Of a DNA stretch of 47,586 nt, positions 1 through 36,542 are shown piece after piece; position 1 is the first letter of the stretch; every line of letters starts with the position of its first letter. Origin of the DNA: a virus. The stretch is from the IMG/VR virus record IMGVR_UViG_3300007354_000128, positions 1 to 47,586 of that record; one strand, 5' to 3'. Position numbers and translations under genes: made by a program. Under the pieces are notes generated by a model. It was not told where the DNA came from. It searched no databases and worked only from the letters and a program-made list of their open reading frames with translations.

Positions 1-378
1 TCACGCCCCCCGCGCCTGCTTATAGATCGCCCATGCGTCCGCCGGGTGCATCGCCCGCAGCTTGCCCGCCAGCGTCTTGGCATCCACCTCCCATTTAGCG
101 TCCAGGCCGTCCAGCGCGGCGCCGTCCTCCACCTCCATGGCCAGCATGGCCGGCAGGCTGGGGATGCTGGCCGGCTCCATCCATGTGCTGCCCAGGAGAT
201 CTCGCAGATAATTTTGCTCGGCCTCGGCCAGGCCGGCCCAGGCGCGCCGGCCCACGCGCTCCAGGGCCTCGACCACGGCGATATCCTCGCGCAGTTGATC
301 GGCCATGGTCCCCGCGCCGCGCTCTAGGCGCGCGCGCTCCGGGCCGGCCAGCGCGAACGTGGTGGGATTATTGGGCAT
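1..378 (-). CDS. Hypothetical protein, last gene of the left accessory operon
   Basis: A 125-residue soluble protein that I do not recognise. It has no membrane segment, signal peptide or cysteine motif. The middle is rich in Leu, Ala and Glu and should be helical, and the C-terminus ends HPADAWAIYKQARGA. Its ATG lies inside the end of the preceding gene (11-bp overlap), so it is probably translationally coupled to it. It closes a four-gene leftward operon that begins at 2388 and has its own promoter. The stop codon is the first base triplet of the window, so whatever lies downstream is unseen. Coding status is supported by tight packing with its neighbours and by good amino-acid composition. 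Confidence 0.7.
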   Translation of the reverse strand: MPNNPTTFALAGPERARLERGAGTMADQLREDIAVVEALERVGRRAWAGLAEAEQNYLRDLLGSTWMEPASIPSLPAMLAMEVEDGAALDGLDAKWEVDAKTLAGKLRAMHPADAWAIYKQARGA

Positions 379-1129
379 CGATCACCTCCTCATCGTCATC
401 GAATGCTCCCGTGAGGGCCAGCGCGGCGCGCACGTATTCCTGCACGCCCAGCCCCGCCCGGCCGGCCTGACGCTGTAGGGCGCATATCTCATTTCGTGAG
501 AGCCCCAGGGGCAGCGAAATTTCCGGAGTGGCCTCCCTGCCCGGAGGCATGGCCGAGGCGAGGGCCGCCACAATATCGCCGCGGCTGACTACAGCGTTGC
601 CCACTCGTAGCCTCCCGGCGTCCGGCTCGATGAGCACCGGAGGCCGGGCCCGGCGCCGGCGTAGGCCGCGCCGAGTCAGGAGCGCCTCTTGCTCCGCGCA
701 GGGGCGGATGCCGTCGGGGCCGAACACCAGGCCGATCTCGCCCGCCCTGAGCGCCGAGAGCGGCACGTCCTGGCGCTGGGGCTGGCCATGCGCGTCCCGG
801 CGCACCAATGGCACCGTTGCGTCGCCGGCATAGCGTCCCTGCTCGTCCAGGGGCAGTTGGCTGAGGGCCCGCAGGAGCATGCGTTTGCCGGCGTAGCGCA
901 CCACCAGTTCGGGCATGATCTCGCCCGCGGCAATGGCGGGTAAATAGACGGCCAGCCCGGTGCGCAGATCGCTGAGATCCTCCCCCCGGCGCTCCAGCTC
1001 GCGCCAGATCATGGCCAGCCGCAGCAGGGACGCAGCGGACACCTCCAGCGCCTGGGCCAGTTCGGCCCGGAGCTGCTCGGTGGGCAGGGCCGCGATCTCC
1101 TCCGGTGTGATCGTGGGCAATTGAGGCAT
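368..1129 (-). CDS. Hypothetical protein (253 aa) of the left accessory operon
   Basis: A 253-residue protein of unknown function. The first 90 residues are helical (for example ALEVSAASLLRLAMIWRELE). A middle stretch (about 105-175) is rich in Arg and contains a run of seven basic residues in eight near RGLRRRRAR, which may contact nucleic acid. The last 60 residues contain LSRNEICALQRQAGRAG, a possible small helical DNA- or protein-binding unit. The tail is acidic (FDDDEE). It follows the zinc-finger gene by 3 bp and overlaps the next gene by 11 bp, so it is co-expressed with both. No catalytic motif was seen. Confidence 0.72.
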   Translation of the reverse strand: MPQLPTITPEEIAALPTEQLRAELAQALEVSAASLLRLAMIWRELERRGEDLSDLRTGLAVYLPAIAAGEIMPELVVRYAGKRMLLRALSQLPLDEQGRYAGDATVPLVRRDAHGQPQRQDVPLSALRAGEIGLVFGPDGIRPCAEQEALLTRRGLRRRRARPPVLIEPDAGRLRVGNAVVSRGDIVAALASAMPPGREATPEISLPLGLSRNEICALQRQAGRAGLGVQEYVRAALALTGAFDDDEEVIDAQ

Positions 1130-1132
1130 GAT

Positions 1133-1717
1133 CTACTCCTCTAATTTGTCCCGGCGCTCGGCCAGGATGGGGGCGACAACTCCGACTAGATTGCGCAGGG
1201 CCGCCCGGCGGCGATACTCGGCCATCTGTCGTTTGTAGGCGCGGTGCGCGCCGGCATCGGCCCACAGCCGGCGGCGCCACTTACGGCGATAGCGCCGGCC
1301 ATGGGCACGGGATTGCTCGCGCCGGCGGTCGGCCTCCTGTGGTGGCAGGATGGCGGCAATCTCCCGCCGCCTGGCCTGGACGCGCTGAGCATCTCTGGCA
1401 TAGCGCGTCCGTGCATGGGCTCTGGCCCTCTGCCGATACTGTGGATCGCGCATGCGGGCCCGCTCGCGCTCCCTCTCCCGCGCGCGATGATCGGCCAGCA
1501 GTTGGGGATCGGCCAGCAGTCGCTCCCTCCGCCGGGCGTGCCGCCGGCGATTGTGCTCGGGATCGGCCTCCTGTCTGCGGCAATAGTAGGCCCGCCAACT
1601 CTGGCGGCGGCGCTCCTGGCGGCACTCGGGCGAGCACGTATTGCTCCGGGAGCCGGCGGGCAAGGGCTCGCCGCAGACAACGCAGCGCGGGGCGTGGCAC
1701 TCATCAACGGCGGGCAT
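1133..1717 (-). CDS. Arginine-rich protein with N-terminal Cys4-type zinc finger
   Basis: A 194-residue, extremely basic protein. A zinc-binding knuckle is visible near the N-terminus: CVVCG, then about 13 residues later CSPEC. The rest is built from irregular Arg-rich, helix-forming segments that recur around DPE/DPQ pairs (ADPEHNRRR, ADPQLL, RDPQYRQRAR), which looks like a nucleic-acid-coating or scaffold protein. I chose the ATG at 1717 because it overlaps the upstream stop as TAATG; the open frame upstream of it lies inside the preceding gene. Its partner gene immediately upstream encodes a very acidic protein, so the two may form a complex. No nuclease motif (HNH, GIY-YIG) could be identified. 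The function is unknown. Confidence 0.72.
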   Translation of the reverse strand: MPAVDECHAPRCVVCGEPLPAGSRSNTCSPECRQERRRQSWRAYYCRRQEADPEHNRRRHARRRERLLADPQLLADHRARERERERARMRDPQYRQRARAHARTRYARDAQRVQARRREIAAILPPQEADRRREQSRAHGRRYRRKWRRRLWADAGAHRAYKRQMAEYRRRAALRNLVGVVAPILAERRDKLEE

Positions 1718-2388
1718 TACTCCTCCTCCCGCGCCTCGATCTGCTCCCGCGCCTCGCTGAGTATCTGCGCGGCGGCCTCCTCGATATCCCACAGGATCGC
1801 CTCTCCCTCGGCGTACTCGCGGATCAGGGCCGCCAGGGCGTCCTGGGCGGGCAGCGTCTCCTCCGTGATCGCAGCGCGCTCCCGCTCCAGTAGATCAGTC
1901 AATATATCCAGCGCGCTCCGGTTGCCGTCAGCGCTGATCCAATAGTGGGCGTCCCCCACGGGCATCCCCTCGTAACGGGGATAGTCGCTCTCCAGCCAGT
2001 AGCCCAGCTCGTCGGCCGCCTCCTGGGCGTCCTCGCTCACGCGGCCCCGATGGTTGGAGCCGTCCCACTCCACAGTGTGCCCCGCGTGGATGCGCGCCAA
2101 CAGCCGGTGCAGCTCGCTCTCGGGATCGGCCAGCAACTCCTCCAGATCATCCGCGGCGGCGTCGCAGGGGATGCCCCAGTGCAGCGTCTGCCGGTGCCAG
2201 ATATCCATCCTGGTGCCGTCGTCGTGCCAGAGGGGGTCGCCCTCGGGCTCCAGCAGGATGCGGCCGTCCTCCTTCAGCAGGAGGCGGGCGCGGTAGCTCC
2301 CGATGCTCTGGCCATCGCGGTAGGCGAGCGCAATGGCGTGGGCGGGTAGGCTCTGGCTCTCGTATCTGATATTATCGTTGCTGGGCAT
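1717..2388 (-). CDS. Acidic hypothetical protein, first gene of the left accessory operon
   Basis: A 223-residue, strongly acidic protein with many Asp/Glu and few Lys/Arg. Residues 20-60 look like a beta-rich unit (IALAYRDGQSIGSYRARLLL, then WHDDGTRMDIWH). The C-terminal 90 residues are helical and end in REEE. Nothing identifies an enzyme family. The Shine-Dalgarno stretch is modest (GGGAGATGAG before ATG). A consensus-like leftward promoter about 80 bp upstream (2465-2493) would drive this gene and the three behind it. A highly acidic protein encoded directly before a highly basic one, with TAATG coupling, suggests a physical pair. A DNA mimic is one possibility, which is inference only. 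Confidence 0.72.
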   Translation of the reverse strand: MPSNDNIRYESQSLPAHAIALAYRDGQSIGSYRARLLLKEDGRILLEPEGDPLWHDDGTRMDIWHRQTLHWGIPCDAAADDLEELLADPESELHRLLARIHAGHTVEWDGSNHRGRVSEDAQEAADELGYWLESDYPRYEGMPVGDAHYWISADGNRSALDILTDLLERERAAITEETLPAQDALAALIREYAEGEAILWDIEEAAAQILSEAREQIEAREEE

Positions 2389-2464: not shown

Positions 2465-2493
2465 ACTATATTATATAGCTATATCCCCGTCAA
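2465..2493 (-). promoter_or_regulatory. Leftward sigma-70-type promoter with palindromic spacer
   Basis: On the minus strand TTGACG (2493-2488) and TATAGT (2470-2465) are separated by exactly 17 bp. The spacer contains the perfect 12-bp palindrome ATATAGCTATAT (2473-2484). This AT-rich island (about 2455-2520) stands out sharply from GC-rich surroundings. ACAACTA (2462-2468) and TAGTTGT (2516-2522) form a wider inverted repeat around it. It should start transcription near 2458 for the operon 2388-1. The palindrome is where a repressor or a MerR-like spacer-distorting regulator could bind. Confidence 0.65.
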
Positions 2494-2568
2494 CATAAAA
2501 ATAACTATACAGGCGTAGTTGTTTTGGGAGAAACGAGCAGGAGGTGGGGCGCTGCGGCCCCGAGAGGG

Positions 2569-2607
2569 GCGCCGGGGGCGGCGTGCTGCGGGCGCCGCCC
2601 CCGGCGC
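2569..2607 (-). terminator. Strong GC hairpin after the lysis genes
   Basis: A perfect 15-bp inverted repeat (arms 2569-2583 and 2593-2607, 9-nt loop) lies 18 bp beyond the stop codon of the last late gene (2626). There is no U-run, so it is not a textbook intrinsic terminator. Its position at the end of the late operon and before an independent promoter suggests transcription termination or 3'-end protection. Confidence 0.5.
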
Positions 2608-2625: not shown

Positions 2626-3210
2626 TTAGGCGGGCGGGCCGGTGATCTCGGGCTCCCAGATGGGAGCGCCGTTGAGGCCCTGGGGCGTGCGCCACGTCGG
2701 GTGCACGCGGGTGAACATTTCGGGCAGGGGCGCGGGTCGGGCCCCGTCGCTGAACCTGAGCGCCATGTCCACCAGGCGGGAGCATATCCACTCGCCGTCG
2801 TCCGCCCAGCGGTTGGGGTTGGCGCCCTGGTCGTCCCGATCGCTGAACAGCAGCCCCGCGATGGCGCTCACGTCGTAGGGCTCGCCCTCCAGGCCGGCGG
2901 CGAAGCGGGCCATGACCTCGGCCGAGGCGCGGGTTTGGCTGAGGGGCCGCCGGACCCAGAACAGCGTGCGCGGGTCGCGGACGTACTCGGCGATGGGCCA
3001 GCGGCGCACCTTGGGCGTCACGGCCTCGATCAGGTGCGTCGCGCTGATGATCACCGCCGCGTGGCTGGCCACCAGCTCGCCGGCCAGGACCAGGGCCCGG
3101 TAGCCGTCCAGGGCTATGCCGTCGCTCAGGTAGTCGCCGGGCCGGCGGGTGAAGGCCGCGTCCCCGAGCCAGTAGTCCCGGCCGTATCGGGGCGAGAGGG
3201 CGCAGAACAT
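2626..3210 (-). CDS. Permuted NlpC/P60-like (YiiX-type) papain-fold protein
   Basis: A 194-residue protein whose layout fits the circularly permuted papain-fold amidase/peptidase family (YiiX/YaeF/DUF830-like). A His follows a hydrophobic run early in the fold (LVASHAAVIIS, about residues 47-57), and the putative nucleophile Cys sits late, on a helix start (GEWICSRLVDMAL, about 138-150). In this family the permuted order His then Cys is diagnostic. Members act on peptidoglycan or lipids. It is the last gene of the late operon, 1 bp after the lipoprotein gene and next to lytic genes, so a role in lysis or envelope passage is plausible. There is no signal peptide. Family call moderate, substrate unknown. 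Confidence 0.55.
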   Translation of the reverse strand: MFCALSPRYGRDYWLGDAAFTRRPGDYLSDGIALDGYRALVLAGELVASHAAVIISATHLIEAVTPKVRRWPIAEYVRDPRTLFWVRRPLSQTRASAEVMARFAAGLEGEPYDVSAIAGLLFSDRDDQGANPNRWADDGEWICSRLVDMALRFSDGARPAPLPEMFTRVHPTWRTPQGLNGAPIWEPEITGPPA

Positions 3211-4569: not shown

Positions 4570-4911
4570 TCACCTTCCCCCGATCTGGCGGGTGGCCAGC
4601 CGGCCCAGGTAATCTTGCAGCTTGGCCCGCAGCTCGCGGCACCCGTCGTCGTTGTCGCAGAGCCGGATCAGGGCCTGGGTGTGCAGCGCTTGGCCCTCGA
4701 GGATCAGCCGGAACAGGTCGCTGCCCACGCGCAGCTCCCGGCTTTGCTCCTCCCTGCACAATTCGCAGTCTCCGGTGGTCACCAGGCCCTGGTGCTCATC
4801 GGCCTGGCGGCCCCGCTTGGCCTGAGCCCGCCACTCCTTGATCAGGTGCACCAGAAGGCCGCTGGCCACGGCGGCCGCTATCGTGAGCAATATCTGCTGC
4901 GCTAGGGTCAT
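4570..4911 (-). CDS. Single-TM protein of the lysis cassette (spanin- or holin-like)
   Basis: A 113-residue protein with one N-terminal hydrophobic helix (about 6-24, ILLTIAAAVASGLLVHLI) followed by a charged, mostly helical domain with a CELC pair (about 49-52) and a further Cys. N-in membrane anchor plus helical exterior resembles an i-spanin (Rz), but the length is short and coiled-coil content modest. It lies 1 bp upstream of the endolysin gene. A 108-bp stretch without a gene precedes it (4912-5019); I see no clear promoter or terminator there. Confidence 0.6.
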   Translation of the reverse strand: MTLAQQILLTIAAAVASGLLVHLIKEWRAQAKRGRQADEHQGLVTTGDCELCREEQSRELRVGSDLFRLILEGQALHTQALIRLCDNDDGCRELRAKLQDYLGRLATRQIGGR

Positions 4912-5019
4912 TGGCGAGGCCCCCCCAACGTGGTTGTCTCTGGGCAGGGCGGACCGCGCCCCGATCTTGTCGCGGCCGCGTGGCTCTCGAGTTTGCGGGG
5001 AAAGACCTCGCGGCGCCCG

Positions 5020-5781
5020 CTACCGGCTCAGCTTGCCGGCGGCGCCGGCCTGGTCCAGCTTGGGGTAAATCTCGGTGCCCAGGCGCACCCCGGGGTCGCT
5101 GGCGTCCAGGGCGCCGAAGTCCCAGGCCACCGCCGACGCCTCCTCGGCGGTCTGGGCCGCGTAAATCTCCTGGGCCCGGGCCACGAAGTAGGCGCGCACC
5201 GTGCCCATCATCCAGGCGCGCAGCGTCTTGAAGCGCTCCAGGGCGGAGGCGGCTTCGTTCTTCTGCGCGGCGGTGGACGCCGGGTCGTCGAACAGCTCTT
5301 GGGCCAGGTAGCGGGCCTCCATGGCCTTGACCAGCCAGGCCGAGGAATAGCCCCGCTCGCTCAGGTAGGCGTCGCTGGCCTGCTCCAGCTCGCGGTAGCG
5401 CAGCTTTTTGGCCAGGGCCAGGTCGCCCACCCACTTGGCGCCGTCCCAGGCGGGGCCCACCAGGCCGGCGGGCGGGGGCGTATCCGGCCAGCCCTCGGGC
5501 GGCTCGGCCCCCAGGGCGCAGGCGGCCGCCTCGCCGGTGGCCGGGTCGTAAAACGCCTTGCCGCGGTAGTCGGGGACCAGGCTCCAGGCGCCGGCCGCGG
5601 GGTCGAACACCGGCTTCTGGTTGGCGGCGGCGGCCGGCGGCTCCACGTCGGTGGCAAAGGCGGGGACCGTGTAGCGCGGCTCGCCGGCCTTTTTGGTCTC
5701 CAGGGGGTCCTCCCGGGCCGGGCGGCCAGCGGGGTTGCCGATCAGCTCGTGCGTATTGCGGTCATAGTCCCAAATCTGCAT
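5020..5781 (-). CDS. Tail-fibre assembly-type protein
   Basis: A 253-residue protein directly after the collar-type tail fibre gene. The N-terminal half carries the pattern of phage tail-fibre chaperones or fibre-tip proteins: an opening like MQIWDYDRNTHELIG, several PP/Trp-rich segments (VFDPAAGAWSLVPDYRG, WDGAKWVG). The C-terminal half (about 125-253) is a helical bundle (KKLRYRELEQASDAYLSERG) of the kind seen in DUF4376/tail-fibre-assembly proteins. It probably helps fold or trimerise the fibre, or caps it. Start ATG at 5781 has AGGAGGACC upstream. The family is inferred from layout and position, not from a decisive motif. Confidence 0.6.
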   Translation of the reverse strand: MQIWDYDRNTHELIGNPAGRPAREDPLETKKAGEPRYTVPAFATDVEPPAAAANQKPVFDPAAGAWSLVPDYRGKAFYDPATGEAAACALGAEPPEGWPDTPPPAGLVGPAWDGAKWVGDLALAKKLRYRELEQASDAYLSERGYSSAWLVKAMEARYLAQELFDDPASTAAQKNEAASALERFKTLRAWMMGTVRAYFVARAQEIYAAQTAEEASAVAWDFGALDASDPGVRLGTEIYPKLDQAGAAGKLSR

Positions 5782-22559: not shown

Positions 22560-24206
22560 TTAGTCCTCCTTGCCGGTCTGCTCGTCGCCGCCGTCCACGA
22601 TCTGCACCGAGACCTGGCCGTCGGGCAGCGGCAGGCCGCGCTCGGCCAGCAGCCGGCGCTCATAAACGGCCTGGTCCACGATCTCCTCGTAGTCGTCGCC
22701 CTGCTCGGCGCACTCCTTCTGCAGGGTGGAGAGCCCCAGGGCCAGGCGTATCTTGGCGCCGGTGGCCTCCTTGACCGGGTCCACCCAGCCGCGGCCGGGG
22801 CCGATCCAGCGGGAGCGGCTGTAGGCGGTGCGGTTGGCGTAGAACTCCTCGGGCGGCGTGTCCACCAGTCCGTCGCTGACCCACTCCTCCAGGAGCAGCT
22901 CGTAGCAGGGCTGGTACCACTGGGCGGCCAGCCAGGCGCGGCGGCCCAGGAAAAAACGCCAGGTCTCCAGCAGGGACATGCGCGCGGAGGCGAAGTTGCT
23001 CTTGGAGAACTCCTTCTTGAACATCTCCGGGCTCATGCCCAGGGCCTGGGCGATCTCGCCCACCAGGTTGTCCACGTAGGCGGGATAGGTGCCGCCGGGA
23101 CGGGTGGGATTGAAGCCCTTGATGTCCTCGCCCGGGTGCAGGTGATAGACCGCGCCGCCCTGCAGGGGGATGCTGTGGGCCCGGCGCTGCTCGATGGCCG
23201 CGGCGATGTCCTTGGGGTCGCCGCCCAGGAGCTGCACCAGGTCTTCGGATTGCAGCGGGGTGACGATGAAAGCGGCGATCATGGCATTGACGATGGCCGC
23301 CTTGAGCTCGGTCTTCTGGTAGTGGTCCAGCATGCGGAAGCGGGTCATGACCGCGGCCATGAAGGGCTTGCCGCGGCTTTGGCCGGGGCGCTCCTTGTCG
23401 TAGGCGTGGATCACCCGGCGGCGGCCCCAGGCCGTGCGCGCCGGCACGCGCGTCCACTCCCCGCCCCACATGCGCAGGGCCGCGCCCAGCAGGACGCCGC
23501 CCGGGGCCGAGCGCATCTGCCGCCCTCGGGCCCAAACCCCGGCGCCCAGGAGATAGGCGTCGTCGCCGGGGTGGGCGTTGCGGATCTGGTAGGCCACCGG
23601 CGCGCCCTCGGCGTCTATCTCCACCCCGCCGCGCAGCGTCTCGCTGTCGGGCATGCCGTTGGGGTTGCAGAGGCGGTCGGCCTCCACGAGCTGAAAGTAG
23701 GTCTTGAAGCGCGCGCCCCGCCGGCCGGTTGCGTCCCACTTGGGCAGGGCCACGGCGGCGCCGTTTTCCAGGTATTGCCGGAAGGCCAGGCCGGCCATCT
23801 CGCCCATGGTCTGGGTGCGGCTGGCGTCTATGTCCGGCGTTTCGGTGGCGGTGCGCCACAGGGCCTCCACCCGCCGGGACCACTCCTCGGCCCACTCCCG
23901 GTCCCGGCCCAGGGCGCGGTAGTCGGGCATGGCCGAGATGCGCAGGCCCGCGCCCACCACGCTGTCCAGGACGGTGCGGATGAAGCCCGCGGCCAGGGGG
24001 TAGTTGCGCACCAGGTCGCGGCTGCGGGGCAGCAGGGCCCCCAGCTCGGGCAGCAGGTCGCTGTCGGCCGAGCCGGCCGGCGGCGTCCAGGAGGACAGGG
24101 CCCGGTCCACGTAGGAGGCGGCCTCGTGGGCCACGGCCTTGAGCTTGAACTCGGCCGCCACCGCCGCCGCGCCGGCAAAGGGGTATTTGCGCACCAGGTC
24201 GTCCAT
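22560..24206 (-). CDS. Portal protein, lambda gpB family
   Basis: A 548-residue portal. The lambda-type strings are clear: LLPRSRDLVRNYPLAAGFIRTVLDSVVGAGL, EWSRRVEALWRTATE, FRQYLENGAAVALPKW, VIHAYDKERPGQSRGKPFMAAVMTRF, LLGGDPKD..., HPGEDIKGFNPTRPGGTYPAYVDN and MFKKEFSKSNFASARMSLLE. It forms the dodecameric DNA entry ring. The ATG at 24206 overlaps the gpW stop as TGATG. The C-terminus (about 530-548) is acidic and Gln/Asp-rich. The large open frame beyond 24206 belongs to other reading frames. Confidence 0.93.
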   Translation of the reverse strand: MDDLVRKYPFAGAAAVAAEFKLKAVAHEAASYVDRALSSWTPPAGSADSDLLPELGALLPRSRDLVRNYPLAAGFIRTVLDSVVGAGLRISAMPDYRALGRDREWAEEWSRRVEALWRTATETPDIDASRTQTMGEMAGLAFRQYLENGAAVALPKWDATGRRGARFKTYFQLVEADRLCNPNGMPDSETLRGGVEIDAEGAPVAYQIRNAHPGDDAYLLGAGVWARGRQMRSAPGGVLLGAALRMWGGEWTRVPARTAWGRRRVIHAYDKERPGQSRGKPFMAAVMTRFRMLDHYQKTELKAAIVNAMIAAFIVTPLQSEDLVQLLGGDPKDIAAAIEQRRAHSIPLQGGAVYHLHPGEDIKGFNPTRPGGTYPAYVDNLVGEIAQALGMSPEMFKKEFSKSNFASARMSLLETWRFFLGRRAWLAAQWYQPCYELLLEEWVSDGLVDTPPEEFYANRTAYSRSRWIGPGRGWVDPVKEATGAKIRLALGLSTLQKECAEQGDDYEEIVDQAVYERRLLAERGLPLPDGQVSVQIVDGGDEQTGKED

Positions 24207-24430
24207 CAGAACTCCACCAAGATGGGCCGGCGGCCGCCGGTCCCCTCGCGCCGGGCGATCTGGTCCTCCAGGTTGCGGACGTAGGCCTCCAGGCGCGGGA
24301 GGTCCGCGCGGCTGTAGGCGACCTGCTTGTCGCCGTAGCCCACGGACACCTCCTGCTGCCCGAGCATGAGCAGGTGCAGCGCCTCCTCGGCCTCGGCCAG
24401 GCGGCTCTTCAGGGTGGCCAGGTCTGCCAT
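24206..24430 (-). CDS. Head-tail connector gpW-like protein
   Basis: A 74-residue protein close to lambda gpW (68). LATLKSRLAEAEEALHLLMLGQ, a beta hairpin (EVSVGYGDKQVAYSRADL) and a second helix (LPRLEAYVRNLEDQIARRE) reproduce the gpW fold order helix-hairpin-helix. It stabilises packaged DNA and connects portal and neck. It lies between terminase and portal, as in lambda. Confidence 0.9.
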   Translation of the reverse strand: MADLATLKSRLAEAEEALHLLMLGQQEVSVGYGDKQVAYSRADLPRLEAYVRNLEDQIARREGTGGRRPILVEF

Positions 24431-24439
24431 GTTTGCTCC

Positions 24440-26335
24440 CTAGAGGTACGGGTCGGCCGGCTGGGCCATGGACGCGCCGGGCGCGTGCAGGGGCCGCACG
24501 GCGGCGGGCCGGCCCTCGGCCGGGTCCGCCGAGCGGCGAGCGACGATGCGGTCGCACTCCCGGTTGAGGTCGAAGCCCTGGCGGCGCAGGCCGCAGAGCA
24601 CCGCGTAGTTGTAGCCCCAGAGGTCCAGGGCCTCGTTGGGCCGGCCGCTGGCGCGGTGCCAGCGTTTCACGGGGAACCCGCGCTGGTACTTGGTGACCAG
24701 CCTCTCCGCCCCGAACATGCGGAAGTAGCCGCTGGGCCGGTCCTTGGGGAAGTGGCAATAGCCGGGGCCCCTGGCCTCGATCTTGAGGCGCTCGGTGACC
24801 ACCAGCTTGGCCTCGTCCACGTTGACCACGAACAGGGGCACGTTGCCCTTGTTGCGCTTGCTGAAGCGCGGCGGCCACACCTCCACGCCCAGGCCGCGGG
24901 CCTTGCCCTTGAGGGCCCAGACCCGCCGGAACCAGCGGCTCTTGCAAAAGGCGTAGGCCATCTCGGGGCCGCCGGCCGGGCCGCCGGTGTCCACCCCCGC
25001 CGCGCGGATGCCCAACTCGCGGCCGTCGGCGGTGGTGAATTTGCCTAGCAAAACGCTGTCGGCCCGCGCCCAAACCTCGGGCAGGAGGGGGTCGCCGTAG
25101 ATCTGGACCCAGAGCAGGGACCAGGCCTCCTCGTCGCGGCCCCAGCCGATCACCTCCACCTCCAGGCGGTTCTCCTGCTGGTCCACCGCGGCGGTGATGA
25201 CCGCCACCTGGGCGGGGATGGCGGGCTTGGGCTCCCAGGCTTCCGACACGGCGCGGCGGTAGATCTCGTCCTCGTCCACCGACTCGCCGGCGTCCTCCCA
25301 GGTCTCGGCCATGAAGGTGTTGACGAAGACCTTGAGCGTGCCGGGCAGCTTCTTGGCCTTCAGGAACTCGTCGGCGTACTTGGCCAGGGGCACCCAGGGG
25401 CTGTAGAGCGCGTTCAAGTGGAAGCTGGCGTGGCCCTTGAAGGGCCGCTCCGCCACCCAGCGGCCGCGGCGCACGGCCCGGTCCCGCTCGGCGTCGCCCC
25501 ACAGGGAGCCGCAGGCTTCGCAGGCGTAGCGCGCCGTCTCCGGCAGGTGGATCAGCTTGCCGTTCTCGTCGCGGACCGGGTTGCCGTTCTCGTCCTCGAG
25601 CTTGTCCCAGACCACGTTGGGGTGCCTGAGGACCTGCTCGCGGCCGCAGTGCGGGCAGGGCACATGGAAGCGCCGCCGGTCGCCTTCCAGGAACTGCCCT
25701 TCTATGCGGCAGGTGCCCTTGTCCGCCGGCGAGCTTAAAAAGCCCAACTTGCGGTTCCAGAAGTTGCTGGTGCGCCGCCGCATGAGGGCCACGGGGTCGC
25801 CCTCGCGCGTGTCCTCGTAGCGGCCCAGCTCGTCGGCCAGCACCACCCGCCGCGGACGGCCGGAAAGGTCGCCCGGGCTCTGGGCGCTGGCCAGGGATAT
25901 CTGGCCGCCGGCGTAGGTCTTGCGCAGCAGGGTGTTGTCCGGGTCGCGCCCCTTGGGCTCGGCCACCTTGGCCCGCAGGCAAGGCGTCTCCTCGATCATG
26001 GGCGCGAGGCGCGACTGGCTGAAGTCCCGCGCGCTGGGCAGCGTGTCCTGCACGATGAGCATCGGGCAGGGATCCACGTGCACGAAGTAGCCGGCGACGT
26101 TCAGGATGAGCTCAGACTTGCCCACCTGGGAGGCGGCCATCCAGGAGACCGTCTCCACGGCCGGGTCGCTGAAGCAGTCCATGATCTCCCGCGTGTACTC
26201 CACGCGGGAGGTCCGCCAGCGGCCGGACTCGGCCACGGCGGGGCCCGCCAGGACGCGGTGTCGGTCCGCCCATTGGCTGACGGTGGTCTTGGCCGGGGGC
26301 GCGATGGCCCGGGCGATGGTCTCAGCTAGAATCAT
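24440..26335 (-). CDS. Terminase large subunit, lambda GpA family
   Basis: A 631-residue packaging motor. A deviant Walker A lies in AASQVGKSE (about 67-75) and a Walker B in RRVVLADEL (about 162-170). GRPRRVVL and the later FWNRKLGFLSSPADKGTC are GpA traits. A zinc-like pair sits at CPHCG and CEAC (about 225-270). The C-terminal nuclease region has VDTGGPAGG and LDLWGYNYAVLC. Length agrees with lambda gpA (641). It cuts at cos and pumps DNA. It overlaps the small-terminase gene by 14 bp. Confidence 0.95.
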   Translation of the reverse strand: MILAETIARAIAPPAKTTVSQWADRHRVLAGPAVAESGRWRTSRVEYTREIMDCFSDPAVETVSWMAASQVGKSELILNVAGYFVHVDPCPMLIVQDTLPSARDFSQSRLAPMIEETPCLRAKVAEPKGRDPDNTLLRKTYAGGQISLASAQSPGDLSGRPRRVVLADELGRYEDTREGDPVALMRRRTSNFWNRKLGFLSSPADKGTCRIEGQFLEGDRRRFHVPCPHCGREQVLRHPNVVWDKLEDENGNPVRDENGKLIHLPETARYACEACGSLWGDAERDRAVRRGRWVAERPFKGHASFHLNALYSPWVPLAKYADEFLKAKKLPGTLKVFVNTFMAETWEDAGESVDEDEIYRRAVSEAWEPKPAIPAQVAVITAAVDQQENRLEVEVIGWGRDEEAWSLLWVQIYGDPLLPEVWARADSVLLGKFTTADGRELGIRAAGVDTGGPAGGPEMAYAFCKSRWFRRVWALKGKARGLGVEVWPPRFSKRNKGNVPLFVVNVDEAKLVVTERLKIEARGPGYCHFPKDRPSGYFRMFGAERLVTKYQRGFPVKRWHRASGRPNEALDLWGYNYAVLCGLRRQGFDLNRECDRIVARRSADPAEGRPAAVRPLHAPGASMAQPADPYL

Positions 26336-26938: not shown

Positions 26939-27667
26939 CTACTTCCCACGCTCAACCTTTTCTCCTCGGTACATGCCCGCGCCCAGCCCGGCGATGGTGC
27001 TGAAGGGCAGGACTGGGACCGTCAGTCGGCGGCGGGCGGTGGGGTCCAAAAAGTAGAGGTAGCGGAACTGGTAGCCGGGCAGGACCTCCCCGCCGAAAAG
27101 CTCCACGTATTTTTTGATGCCGATGTTCTTTCCTTTGGTGCGCCGCAGAATCTCCCGCGAGAGGCGGCTGGTTTTGTCCTGCACCTTGAGCAGGTGGGCC
27201 ACCGGGCCGCCGTTCAGGGGCACCAGGTCCGGCGGCAGCCGCCACATGCTGCCCTGGCTGTAGCCGGTGAGGGCAAAGCCGGCGGCGCGGTAGATGGTGC
27301 CGTCGCCGCACTGCATCCCATCGGCGAAGGAGACCACCCACTGCAGGTGCGGGTAGTGCTTCCTAAGCATCCGCAGGGCCACGCCCAGGGCGCGGCTTTC
27401 GCTGTTGCGCGGCAGCCGCTCGCCGAAGGCCATGCGGTTGAGCTCGATGAAGCCGTTCCAGGGCGTGTCCCGCACCAGCCCCTGCAGCTTGCGCTTGTCC
27501 AAGGAGGGGCCGAACTGCATGGCGCCCTCGAGGCGGCCGGCCAGGAACACCCCCAGATGGAGCTGGCTGTTCTGCACCACCTTGCCGCTGTAGTGGCAGC
27601 GCTGCACCACGCGGTTGGCGTCGCGGGCGGCGATGGGGGCCACCCTTATGTCCTTGGCGCTAGGCAT
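26939..27667 (-). CDS. mom: Mom-family DNA adenine modification protein
   Basis: A 242-residue protein of the phage Mu Mom family (a GNAT-like fold that places a carbamoylmethyl-type group on N6 of adenine in DNA, shielding phage DNA from restriction). Seen here: CHYSGKVVQNSQLHLGVF (24-41), AMQFGPS, ELNRMAFGERLPRNSESRAL (75-94) and HLQWVVSFADGMQCGDGTIY (107-126), which are the family's core strings. It lies between the ParB-domain gene (8-bp overlap) and the small terminase, so it is expressed late, as in Mu. No Com-like translational activator was seen nearby. The exact modification is not certain. Confidence 0.88.
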   Translation of the reverse strand: MPSAKDIRVAPIAARDANRVVQRCHYSGKVVQNSQLHLGVFLAGRLEGAMQFGPSLDKRKLQGLVRDTPWNGFIELNRMAFGERLPRNSESRALGVALRMLRKHYPHLQWVVSFADGMQCGDGTIYRAAGFALTGYSQGSMWRLPPDLVPLNGGPVAHLLKVQDKTSRLSREILRRTKGKNIGIKKYVELFGGEVLPGYQFRYLYFLDPTARRRLTVPVLPFSTIAGLGAGMYRGEKVERGK

Positions 27668-28301
27668 GGGCCGCCAGGAAGCTGTCGCAGACCCGCGCCA
27701 GGGCGTTGCCGTTGGAGTTGCGGTTCAGCTCCTGGTCAAAGTGCCCCATGCCTTTGGAGACCGACAGCGCCTCCTTCACCCGCTCGGCCTGTTGGTCGTG
27801 CAGGGTGAAGACCATCTGCTGAAACGGGTCCTTGTCGCCACTGGGAAGCGTGGGCAGATCGGTGGCGGCCACGTCGCCCAGCAGGGCCCGTAGCTCCTCC
27901 TCGTCAAAGCCGGTGAGGCTCAGGTCAACGTCAAGCGCCTCCAGATCCAGCAGCTCCTCGGCCAGCGCCTCTTTGTCCCAGGGCGCCCAGGATGCCGAGC
28001 GCTTGAGGGCCAGGCGCAGGGCCCGGACCTCCTCGGGGCGCAGGTCATCGGCCGGGATCACCGGCAGTGTGGCCAGCCCCAGGCGCTCCACCTCGTCGCC
28101 GGTCAAGGTAACGACCGCCTTAAGGCGCAGCTTGCCGTCGATGATCCAGCCGTCGCTGGTGGCCAGCAGGGGCAGGCGCATGCCATAGGTGCGGACCAGG
28201 TCGGCCATGCGGGCCACGGTGGCGTCGTCTTGTTTGGTCAGGTCGCGGGCGTAGGGGCGCAGCCGCTCCAGCGGCCACTGCTCGATGGTCAGTGCCTTCA
28301 T
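27660..28301 (-). CDS. ParB/Srx-domain protein paired with Mom
   Basis: A 213-residue protein. Residues about 1-110 match the ParB N-terminal (ParB/sulfiredoxin) domain: IEQWPLERLRPYARDLTKQDD, then MADLVRTYGMRLPLLATSDGWIIDGKLRLKA. The usual HTH DNA-binding half of true ParB is absent; instead a ALAEELLDLEALDVDLSLTGFDEEELRALL region follows, as in the ParB-like proteins found beside phage DNA-modification genes. It may bind nucleotide (CTP) and act with Mom or its substrate. It begins the packaging/head operon, 500 bp after the preceding gene. Confidence 0.8.
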   Translation of the reverse strand: MKALTIEQWPLERLRPYARDLTKQDDATVARMADLVRTYGMRLPLLATSDGWIIDGKLRLKAVVTLTGDEVERLGLATLPVIPADDLRPEEVRALRLALKRSASWAPWDKEALAEELLDLEALDVDLSLTGFDEEELRALLGDVAATDLPTLPSGDKDPFQQMVFTLHDQQAERVKEALSVSKGMGHFDQELNRNSNGNALARVCDSFLAAHA

Positions 28302-35111: not shown

Positions 35112-35323
35112 GCCGCCGCCTCTGCGTTTTTGATCCACGCCGGGCACCAGCCCCGCGCGCTCACCATCAGCAGCTCGTCTCCGTTCAGCGCCAGGGCCCG
35201 GGGCCGGAAGCAGCGCCACTTGCGGGTTTGCCCGTCCTGCCGGGCCCAGCCGCAGCCGGCGCACTCCTCCCGCTGCGGGCAGGACTCATAGCCCAGGGCC
35301 CGGTAAATCTCAGATCGGTTCAC
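35108..35323 (-). CDS. Cysteine-rich small protein
   Basis: A 71-residue protein with six Cys: CPQREECAGCGWARQ, WRCFRPRALAL, RGWCPAW. The pattern suggests one zinc site or a Fe-S cluster. It lies between the ASCH-DUF4326 gene and the DUF4031 nuclease gene, in 4-bp overlaps on both sides. No function assigned. Confidence 0.68.
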   Translation of the reverse strand: MNRSEIYRALGYESCPQREECAGCGWARQDGQTRKWRCFRPRALALNGDELLMVSARGWCPAWIKNAEAAA

Positions 35324-36177
35324 GTCTCCTCCGCCAGCCGCACCAGCACGTCGCCATGGCAGGGCTGGTCAGCCCGGCAGTAGCAGCCCAGGCGCTTGCC
35401 TTTCAGCTCGGGCAGGCGGGCCATGAGCTGGCCGTTTGACCGTAACCATGATTCATAGGCCTTGATGCACGCCCCCAGCGCCGCGGCCTTGGTATCGCAA
35501 GGGCCGTAGGGCTTCAGATATCGATTACGTAAATCAACCCACTGCCCAAAATCTCTGTCCCATTGCTCTACGGCCCAGCGGCTATCAACTCTCCTAGTCC
35601 TGAAAGGATTCCCCCACCGCCCCGGCTGGGTGATCATCACGTCCGGGCACTCCACCCGCACGTCCACCCGGCGCGTGCGGCCGTCGTGGGGCTTGAATAA
35701 TTCGTGCTCGTTGGGGCTGGGGGCCAGAAAAAACGAATTGGCCCGGCGGCCGGCCAGGTAGGTCACCGGCCGATCAAAGGGTTTAGGATCGGCAAGCTCC
35801 CAGTGCCAAGCGCCAGGCGCGGCCCATCGGCTCTTGCTGTCCTGCCGGCAGCCGGTGATCTTGACCGTGCCCAGGATGGCCCGCCGGGCCAGGTCTATTT
35901 GCAGGCCCAGCCACAGGGCTATCAGGTCCCAGCCCAGGATGCGCTCGCGCTGCCAGGCCCTGGCCAACAACTCGGCCACCTGCGCTTGGCCGCCCAGCAG
36001 GTCCACGAATCGGCCCATCTCCAGGGTGTGGTCCCACCGCGCCCCCTGGTACACCAGCACCTCCAGGGGCAGCGTGTACCGGGCGGGCGCCGGCCGGCGC
36101 CGGTTCTCCACGTCCTTGGCGCCGGCCATGATCAAGCTGCCCCAGGGCGCCCACACCGCGAAGCAGGGCATGCTCAT
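35320..36177 (-). CDS. ASCH-like plus DUF4326 fusion protein
   Basis: A 285-residue two-domain protein. The N-terminal half (about 1-165) has AVWAPWGSLIMAGAKDVENR and the strand ILGTVKITGC, fitting the ASCH/PUA-like fold that binds RNA or modified bases. The C-terminal half (about 175-285) is DUF4326: QPGRWGNPFRTRRV, then YESWLRSNGQLMARLPELKGKRLGCYCRADQPCHGDVLVRL, with two Cys and His as in the family. Both halves are seen separately in other phages. ATG overlaps the DnaJ-type zinc gene stop. Role unknown; a nucleotide- or base-handling function is plausible. Confidence 0.78.
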   Translation of the reverse strand: MSMPCFAVWAPWGSLIMAGAKDVENRRRPAPARYTLPLEVLVYQGARWDHTLEMGRFVDLLGGQAQVAELLARAWQRERILGWDLIALWLGLQIDLARRAILGTVKITGCRQDSKSRWAAPGAWHWELADPKPFDRPVTYLAGRRANSFFLAPSPNEHELFKPHDGRTRRVDVRVECPDVMITQPGRWGNPFRTRRVDSRWAVEQWDRDFGQWVDLRNRYLKPYGPCDTKAAALGACIKAYESWLRSNGQLMARLPELKGKRLGCYCRADQPCHGDVLVRLAEET

Positions 36178-36542
36178 GGCTGGGGCTCGCCCTTGGCTTT
36201 GCCGGTTCCCTGGCATTTGGGGCAGGGCGCGTAGCGGGTGCCGGTCTCGATACTCCACTCTCGGAAGACTTTGCCTTTTCCCTCGCACTTGGAGCAGTTT
36301 CCGGTCTCCGCCTCGTACCTTTGGGCCTCCGTCTCTATTTCCTCTCGCGTCACCACGGCCGTCTGCAAGGGCCTGGCCCACCGCTTTTGACCTTTGTTGG
36401 GACCGCGAATCAGGCGGCGAGGAACGCTGCCTGAGATAATCAAGTCCCGCGTTCCGTCCATCCATTTGTAGGTGCAGCCCTCCCATTCGGGAGGCGCACT
36501 CAGTTTGCGCCGGGCTATCGCATCGGCAAAGGTTAGGCTCAT
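36174..36542 (-). CDS. Protein with a DnaJ-type zinc finger pair
   Basis: A 122-residue protein. The N-terminal 80 residues are unrecognised (LTFADAIARRKLSAPPEWEG; TYKWMDGTRDLIISG). The end carries two CxxCxGxG units (CSKCEGKGKV, CPKCQGTGKA) as in the DnaJ cysteine-rich domain, here one zinc site. It may bind unfolded protein or nucleic acid. ATGA overlaps on both sides. Confidence 0.75.
   Translation of the reverse strand: MSLTFADAIARRKLSAPPEWEGCTYKWMDGTRDLIISGSVPRRLIRGPNKGQKRWARPLQTAVVTREEIETEAQRYEAETGNCSKCEGKGKVFREWSIETGTRYAPCPKCQGTGKAKGEPQP

Follow-up and report, generated by a model that had tools for sequence, protein, structure and literature searches.

Layout of the operon and its prophage

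The window (the whole stretch of 47,586 nucleotides analysed here, G000:C3:35193-82778, minus strand) carries a prophage with a contractile tail, with a sheath protein, a Phage_cap_E capsid and a lambda-type portal. This myovirus prophage is inserted in a tRNA-Glu gene and is flanked, outside the window, by a direct repeat of the 3′ end of the tRNA. The final 2.4 kb ahead of the distal attachment site is taken up by an operon of four leftward open reading frames, here called A, B, C and D, lying behind a hairpin and a putative promoter of their own with palindromes (Table 1). A and B share a TAATG junction, B and C are separated by 3 nt, and C and D overlap by 11 nt. A preliminary description, made from the letters of the sequence, had reported these packed genes and their junctions at the same place, as well as the pairing of a zinc-knuckle, arginine-rich gene (B, pI 11.5, net charge +29) with a strongly acidic one (A, pI 4.4, net charge −31), and in all of this it was accurate. 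Profiles built without any window sequence and run against 3017 open reading frames recovered the window proteins B (7.5e-40), A (1.7e-10) and D (2.7e-7), and C has relatives at 33 other loci; judged by such comparisons, all four frames are genes and not chance frames.

Table 1. Features of the operon and the attachment sites (window positions, except C3 coordinates)
Feature	Position	Strand	Description
Gene A	1717..2388	(-)	Acidic protein, 223 aa; first gene of the operon
Gene B	1133..1717 (from its ATG)	(-)	Zinc-knuckle, Arg-rich protein, 194 aa
Gene C	368..1129	(-)	Hallmark protein, 253 aa
Gene D	1..378	(-)	AcrIE10-family protein by homology, divergent member, 125 aa
Putative sigma-70-like promoter	2465..2493	(-)	TTGACG-17-TATAGT, upstream of A; matches 10/12, 0.4 expected in shuffles
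Palindrome	2466-2478		CTATATTATATAG; candidate operator, around the promoter
Palindrome	2473-2484		ATATAGCTATAT; candidate operator, around the promoter
Palindrome	2503-2520		AACTA-N8-TAGTT; candidate operator, 0.08 expected in the whole window
GC hairpin	2569..2607		15-bp stem, 9-nt loop, between lysis genes and operon; z = -3.9
Attachment repeat, integrase side	C3:35141-35186		46-bp repeat of the tRNA-Glu 3′ end
Attachment repeat, distal side	C3:83057-83102		Some 280 bp to the left of window base 1

The operon had been described as cut off from the late genes by a hairpin and driven by an independent promoter, and both claims stand in part. A strong hairpin is indeed present, but no T-run is found at it, so that it is not a canonical terminator and may perhaps not terminate at all. 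Likewise, a sigma-70-like element does precede A, but it is a consensus match only.

Several other features of the prophage were seen in passing. The last gene before the hairpin (2626-3210, minus strand) matches PHROG 1128, of the moron category, at 3.4e-8 and has a weak Peptidase_C92 match (a permuted papain-like fold); it is grouped with SLT transglycosylase and lipoprotein genes in the lysis region. The 1140-aa open frame at 22560-25982 (minus strand) shows portal homology in its second half only; another long frame (24440-26335) overlaps the first half, hence the portal gene itself probably begins inside the frame. The early region encodes a ParB/methyltransferase-like gene (27660-28301) and a DUF4326 protein (35320-36486), both on the minus strand, and host genes past attR (L004:7633-12333) resemble, by eye, gas-vesicle proteins of the GvpA type.

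B and C form the constant core

Relatives of C were found at 34 loci including the window, the other 33 being on phages, prophages and plasmids. They were not easily reached: as single sequences A, B and D matched no phage records, and window C alone found nothing in a first scan of viral contigs. Among phages it has distant matches (phiM12, RHph_X2_26), with far better ones among plasmid proteins of Chromobacterium, Acinetobacter and Aggregatibacter, and it was through these plasmids, and then through alignment-based scans, that relatives came to light in IMG/VR contigs and five genome contigs. The B–C pair is present at all 33 other loci, with B directly upstream of C at every one except one, and by the second-round profile this order holds at 32 of the 34 loci, window included. 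The exceptions are L018, which keeps the C-terminal motif of B behind a helix-turn-helix (HTH) head, and L040, where a basic gene lies downstream of C. Usually the two genes overlap where C begins, by anything from a few bases to about 40.

All four families come together in a single operon on a plasmid of Chromobacterium and likewise in a prophage from IMG/VR, so the set recurs. Gene order varies, being A-x-D-B-C-HTH on the plasmid (NZ_CP029555), A-D-B-C-HTH on the IMG/VR contig (L022) and A-B-C-D in the window, and D adjoins B–C at 10 of the 34 loci (window included). Across loci the neighbours are genes of phages and mobile elements, such as integrases, terminases and lysozymes. The C family is rare, with one genome of 297 in a sample of the window's phylum (the window's own) and three of 399 in the order of L016. 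Directly upstream of an acidic-D-B-C set in Aggregatibacter kilianii stands a gene (L017:4327-5157, plus strand) that, by eye, resembles a DNA adenine methyltransferase.

This distribution bears on the plainest account of the operon, namely that A to D are ordinary late or lysis-associated phage genes expressed by read-through from the lysis operon. The four genes are co-directional with the lysis genes and beside them, and lysis genes are also close by in L013, L024 and L027. However, the set is found on conjugative plasmids without phage genes, none of the other 296 genomes in the phylum sample has it, and in the window it lies beyond a hairpin with a separate candidate promoter. We regard this account as highly improbable; a lysis or structural reading was rejected, given the lack of any match to such a family and the plasmid homologues. 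The operon is thus an accessory one near a prophage end, as first described, and neither of the two outcomes that had been named as refuting it (homologues among ordinary virion or replication genes, or genes never found together elsewhere) was observed.

The B family is built from exchangeable N-terminal DNA-binding heads on a conserved C-terminal helix (RRRALAxLLxxxxxL..DDE), and only the C-terminal half is constant across loci. The heads include one or two zinc knuckles with four Cys in the window protein (CxxC...CxxxC), an added FGxLxV zinc ribbon, an HTH (L018) and a Myb-like region (L046, by eye). A zinc-finger family name for B was considered and dropped, as no Pfam family rose above the cut-off for the window protein.

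C belongs to PHROG 28375 (1.6e-10), a phage family of unknown function which contains relatives of its conserved core, and whose linkage to B, D and regulators is not noted in that library. The preliminary description had held that the four genes match no known family, which is only partly so in view of this assignment and of the AcrIE10 relationship of D set out below. C combines a conserved N-terminal alpha/beta core (about residues 8-195) with a ribbon-helix-helix (RHH) tail (about 205-240) which resembles the RHH proteins CdbA and NikA. The AlphaFold model (pLDDT 85) has no significant fold match to its core in the PDB and in BFVD matches the phiM12 homologue only; on the strength of this model, the core is predicted to be a new fold. 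Foldseek matches of C to coronavirus proteases and RNA polymerase had probabilities of 0.2 or less and were set aside as noise.

Gene A and the acidic slot

A carries the motif RIHAGHxxxWDGSNHRG and has no Pfam, PHROG, NCBIfam or PDB family; the profile that recovered it came from the proteins of two loci only (L008 and L022). Relatives of A without B–C are found on Streptomyces plasmids and in other phages, and at other loci its place is occupied by unrelated acidic proteins. Among 28 loci, 6 have an acidic frame upstream of B, compared with 1.5% of background anchors (Fisher p = 1.3e-4), a tendency seen in a minority of loci. The acidic and basic genes A and B had been put forward as a coupled pair; we reject them as the conserved pair, since A is rare, replaceable and independent, and the constant partner of B is C. 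At a further locus, an A-family gene is divergent from another gene in the absence of B or C (L061:4407-4829, minus strand, and 4884-5555, plus strand). The partner resembles, by eye, the C-terminal part of window D behind an RHH-like start, and is not among the D2 profile matches at E 1 or better.

Gene D, a divergent AcrIE10-family protein by homology

AcrIE10 is a type I-E anti-CRISPR of Klebsiella plasmids (PDB 8JI9, 9M71, 9M7T) that binds Cas7e and blocks Cascade assembly (PMC13131331; 8JI9). A profile of eight D proteins matches AcrIE10 chains at 1.7e-23 over 2-116 of 125 positions (1.7e-23 and 6.8e-23 for the D family sequence profiles against PDB sequences), and the membership of window D in this family, recovered by the window-free profile, holds at 6.4e-6 when AcrIE10-type plasmid proteins are added. 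AlphaFold predicts window D to be a helical protein (pLDDT 78.5), for which the best Foldseek matches in the PDB are four AcrIE10 chains over the full length (probability 0.90-0.99, E 0.14-0.83; the next match falls to 0.07), although this model and the D profile rest on one family alignment and are not independent. Other members are closer to AcrIE10: the D of L029 alone matches it at 3.3e-10, and that of L027, which lies 5 nt upstream of B and by itself found only itself among viral contigs, is 52-54% identical to an AcrIE10-type protein of Klebsiella plasmids. More than 2000 plasmid records match this L027 protein, and some of the Klebsiella sequences are nearly identical to the solved chains. 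By homology, then, the D family is the AcrIE10 family.

Window D shares the fold over its full length and the sequence family by profile, but it is only about 23% identical to AcrIE10 in the structural alignment, was not linked to it by phmmer as a single sequence, and was missed by a profile of close AcrIE10 homologues alone (D3). The family assignment suggests that it may inhibit CRISPR by binding Cas7; given its divergence, that activity may have been lost or retargeted. C and A are missing from the plasmid AcrIE10 loci of Klebsiella, Shewanella and Aeromonas, which show no convincing B either, hence B–C is not needed for AcrIE10 as such.

In the host genome, which is 94% complete, no Cas1 and no type I-E Cas7 was found, and a role against this very host was dropped for that reason. 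Type I-E Cas7 is present in one genome of the same genus and three of the same family (G003, G008, G012, G014), so targets exist among likely hosts; in the same-genus genome, G003, the Cas7e gene is at C98:36113-37090.

Regulators and operators

Aca proteins, including Aca2, repress acr operons via inverted repeats in the promoter (PMC9410906; PMC8434428), and Aca2-like regulators occur outside acr operons too (PMC8434428). The window operon has such inverted repeats in its putative promoter. In four sister operons (L009, L013, L016, L038) an Aca2_YdiL protein scores above the Pfam cut-off; KorA-like HTH proteins, below the cut-off, are found at L008, L021 and L022, and a small RHH-like gene (by eye) follows C at L012. 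D and an Aca2-type gene are never found together in a sister operon, the Aca2 loci being without D.

Neither the window frames nor the family searches revealed a separate HTH aca gene in the window operon, and here the tail of C becomes relevant. Many C proteins end in an RHH tail (NikA-like in 10/29, matched by other RHH models in others), while those of L009, L012 and L013 are without it and the same loci have a separate regulator. Tail and separate regulator are thus complementary across loci, which suggests that in the window the RHH tail of C acts as the repressor of its own operon.

In the promoter region of the Chromobacterium operon (L008, upstream of 2618) there is an inverted repeat with TAGTT/AACTA half sites, as at 2503-2520 in the window, possibly an operator common to the two operons.

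A probable anti-defence cargo operon

We consider it probable (about 0.6) that the locus is acr-type anti-defence cargo, an operon that regulates itself and joins a divergent gene of the AcrIE10 family to a B–C core not described before. It resembles acr-aca operons as a small-gene operon on phages and plasmids, with promoter palindromes and with Aca2_YdiL regulators in sister operons; it differs in that the window has no separate aca gene, the C tail being the best candidate for the repressor. There is also a likeness to the anti-defence islands in the leading region of conjugative plasmids, where the side away from the relaxase is enriched in anti-defence genes (PMC11541004). On the conjugative plasmid pVT745 the set lies on the far side of the presumed oriT from the relaxase, and the AcrIE10-type genes on IncF plasmids of Klebsiella are located near traM. 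However, the window set is on a prophage, and the oriT of pVT745 is a presumed one.

In such an operon, D, like AcrIE10, would bind Cas7e and prevent the type I-E surveillance complex from assembling. B and C would act as an obligate pair, in which B recognises DNA through its exchangeable head and docks on C by its conserved C-terminal helix. Low expression in the lysogen is most likely maintained by the RHH tail of C, bound to the promoter palindromes; in operons whose C is tailless, a separate repressor (RHH, KorA-like or Aca2-like) would take over. The highly acidic, replaceable A is plausibly a second anti-defence factor. When phage DNA enters a cell, its operators would be free, so that a burst of expression could block host defences before shutdown sets in.

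Three functions had been offered beforehand for the operon, namely defence, anti-defence and conversion, and the evidence selects the second. The competing case for a prophage-encoded defence or superinfection exclusion system, expressed in the lysogen from its own promoter, draws on the prophage-end location and separate candidate promoter, and prophage hotspots often hold antiviral systems (PMC9122126). On the other side, PADLOC returned no credible match for A to D (the best, to a SIR2 model, covered 50 residues of D at E 0.01), searches of the operon proteins revealed no domain of a nuclease, NTPase or toxin, D is AcrIE10-like, and homologues occur in phiM12, a virulent phage (PMC5537653), and on a conjugative plasmid. 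These last two occurrences favour anti-defence over defence of the lysogen, which we think has little chance of being correct.

A regulatory or nucleoid-type DNA-binding module of mobile elements deserves more weight, though it too is unlikely. B–C would then coat or silence DNA, or control genes, with D as a repurposed regulator of AcrIE10 fold, and no defence would be blocked. Such a module would suit the strongly basic B with its exchangeable heads, the RHH tail of C, the KorA/TrfB-like genes adjoining several copies, and a host without detected type I-E CRISPR; moreover, the D fold binds DNA, as seen in a solved structure of AcrIE10 with DNA (9m7t). Against it, AcrIE10 itself binds Cas7e, the L027 D and its Klebsiella counterpart share about 53% identity, and the sporadic spread on phages and plasmids suits cargo better than core regulation.

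B–C could itself be a new two-protein anti-defence system, in which a DNA-binding adaptor with swappable heads and a protein of new fold form the constant core of cargo operons on phages and plasmids of unrelated bacteria, and into which inhibitors (AcrIE10-like D, diverse acidic A) and repressors plug. This is a tentative proposal, and we hold it with clearly less confidence than the anti-defence reading as a whole.

Implications

Known from plasmids, chiefly those of Klebsiella, the AcrIE10 family is extended by these findings to phages and prophages of distantly related bacteria. C is without a solved relative, so that its structure would be new. The B–C pair can be recognised by profile and may serve as bait for new inhibitors through guilt by association, with the acidic proteins and D variants found beside it as ready candidates.
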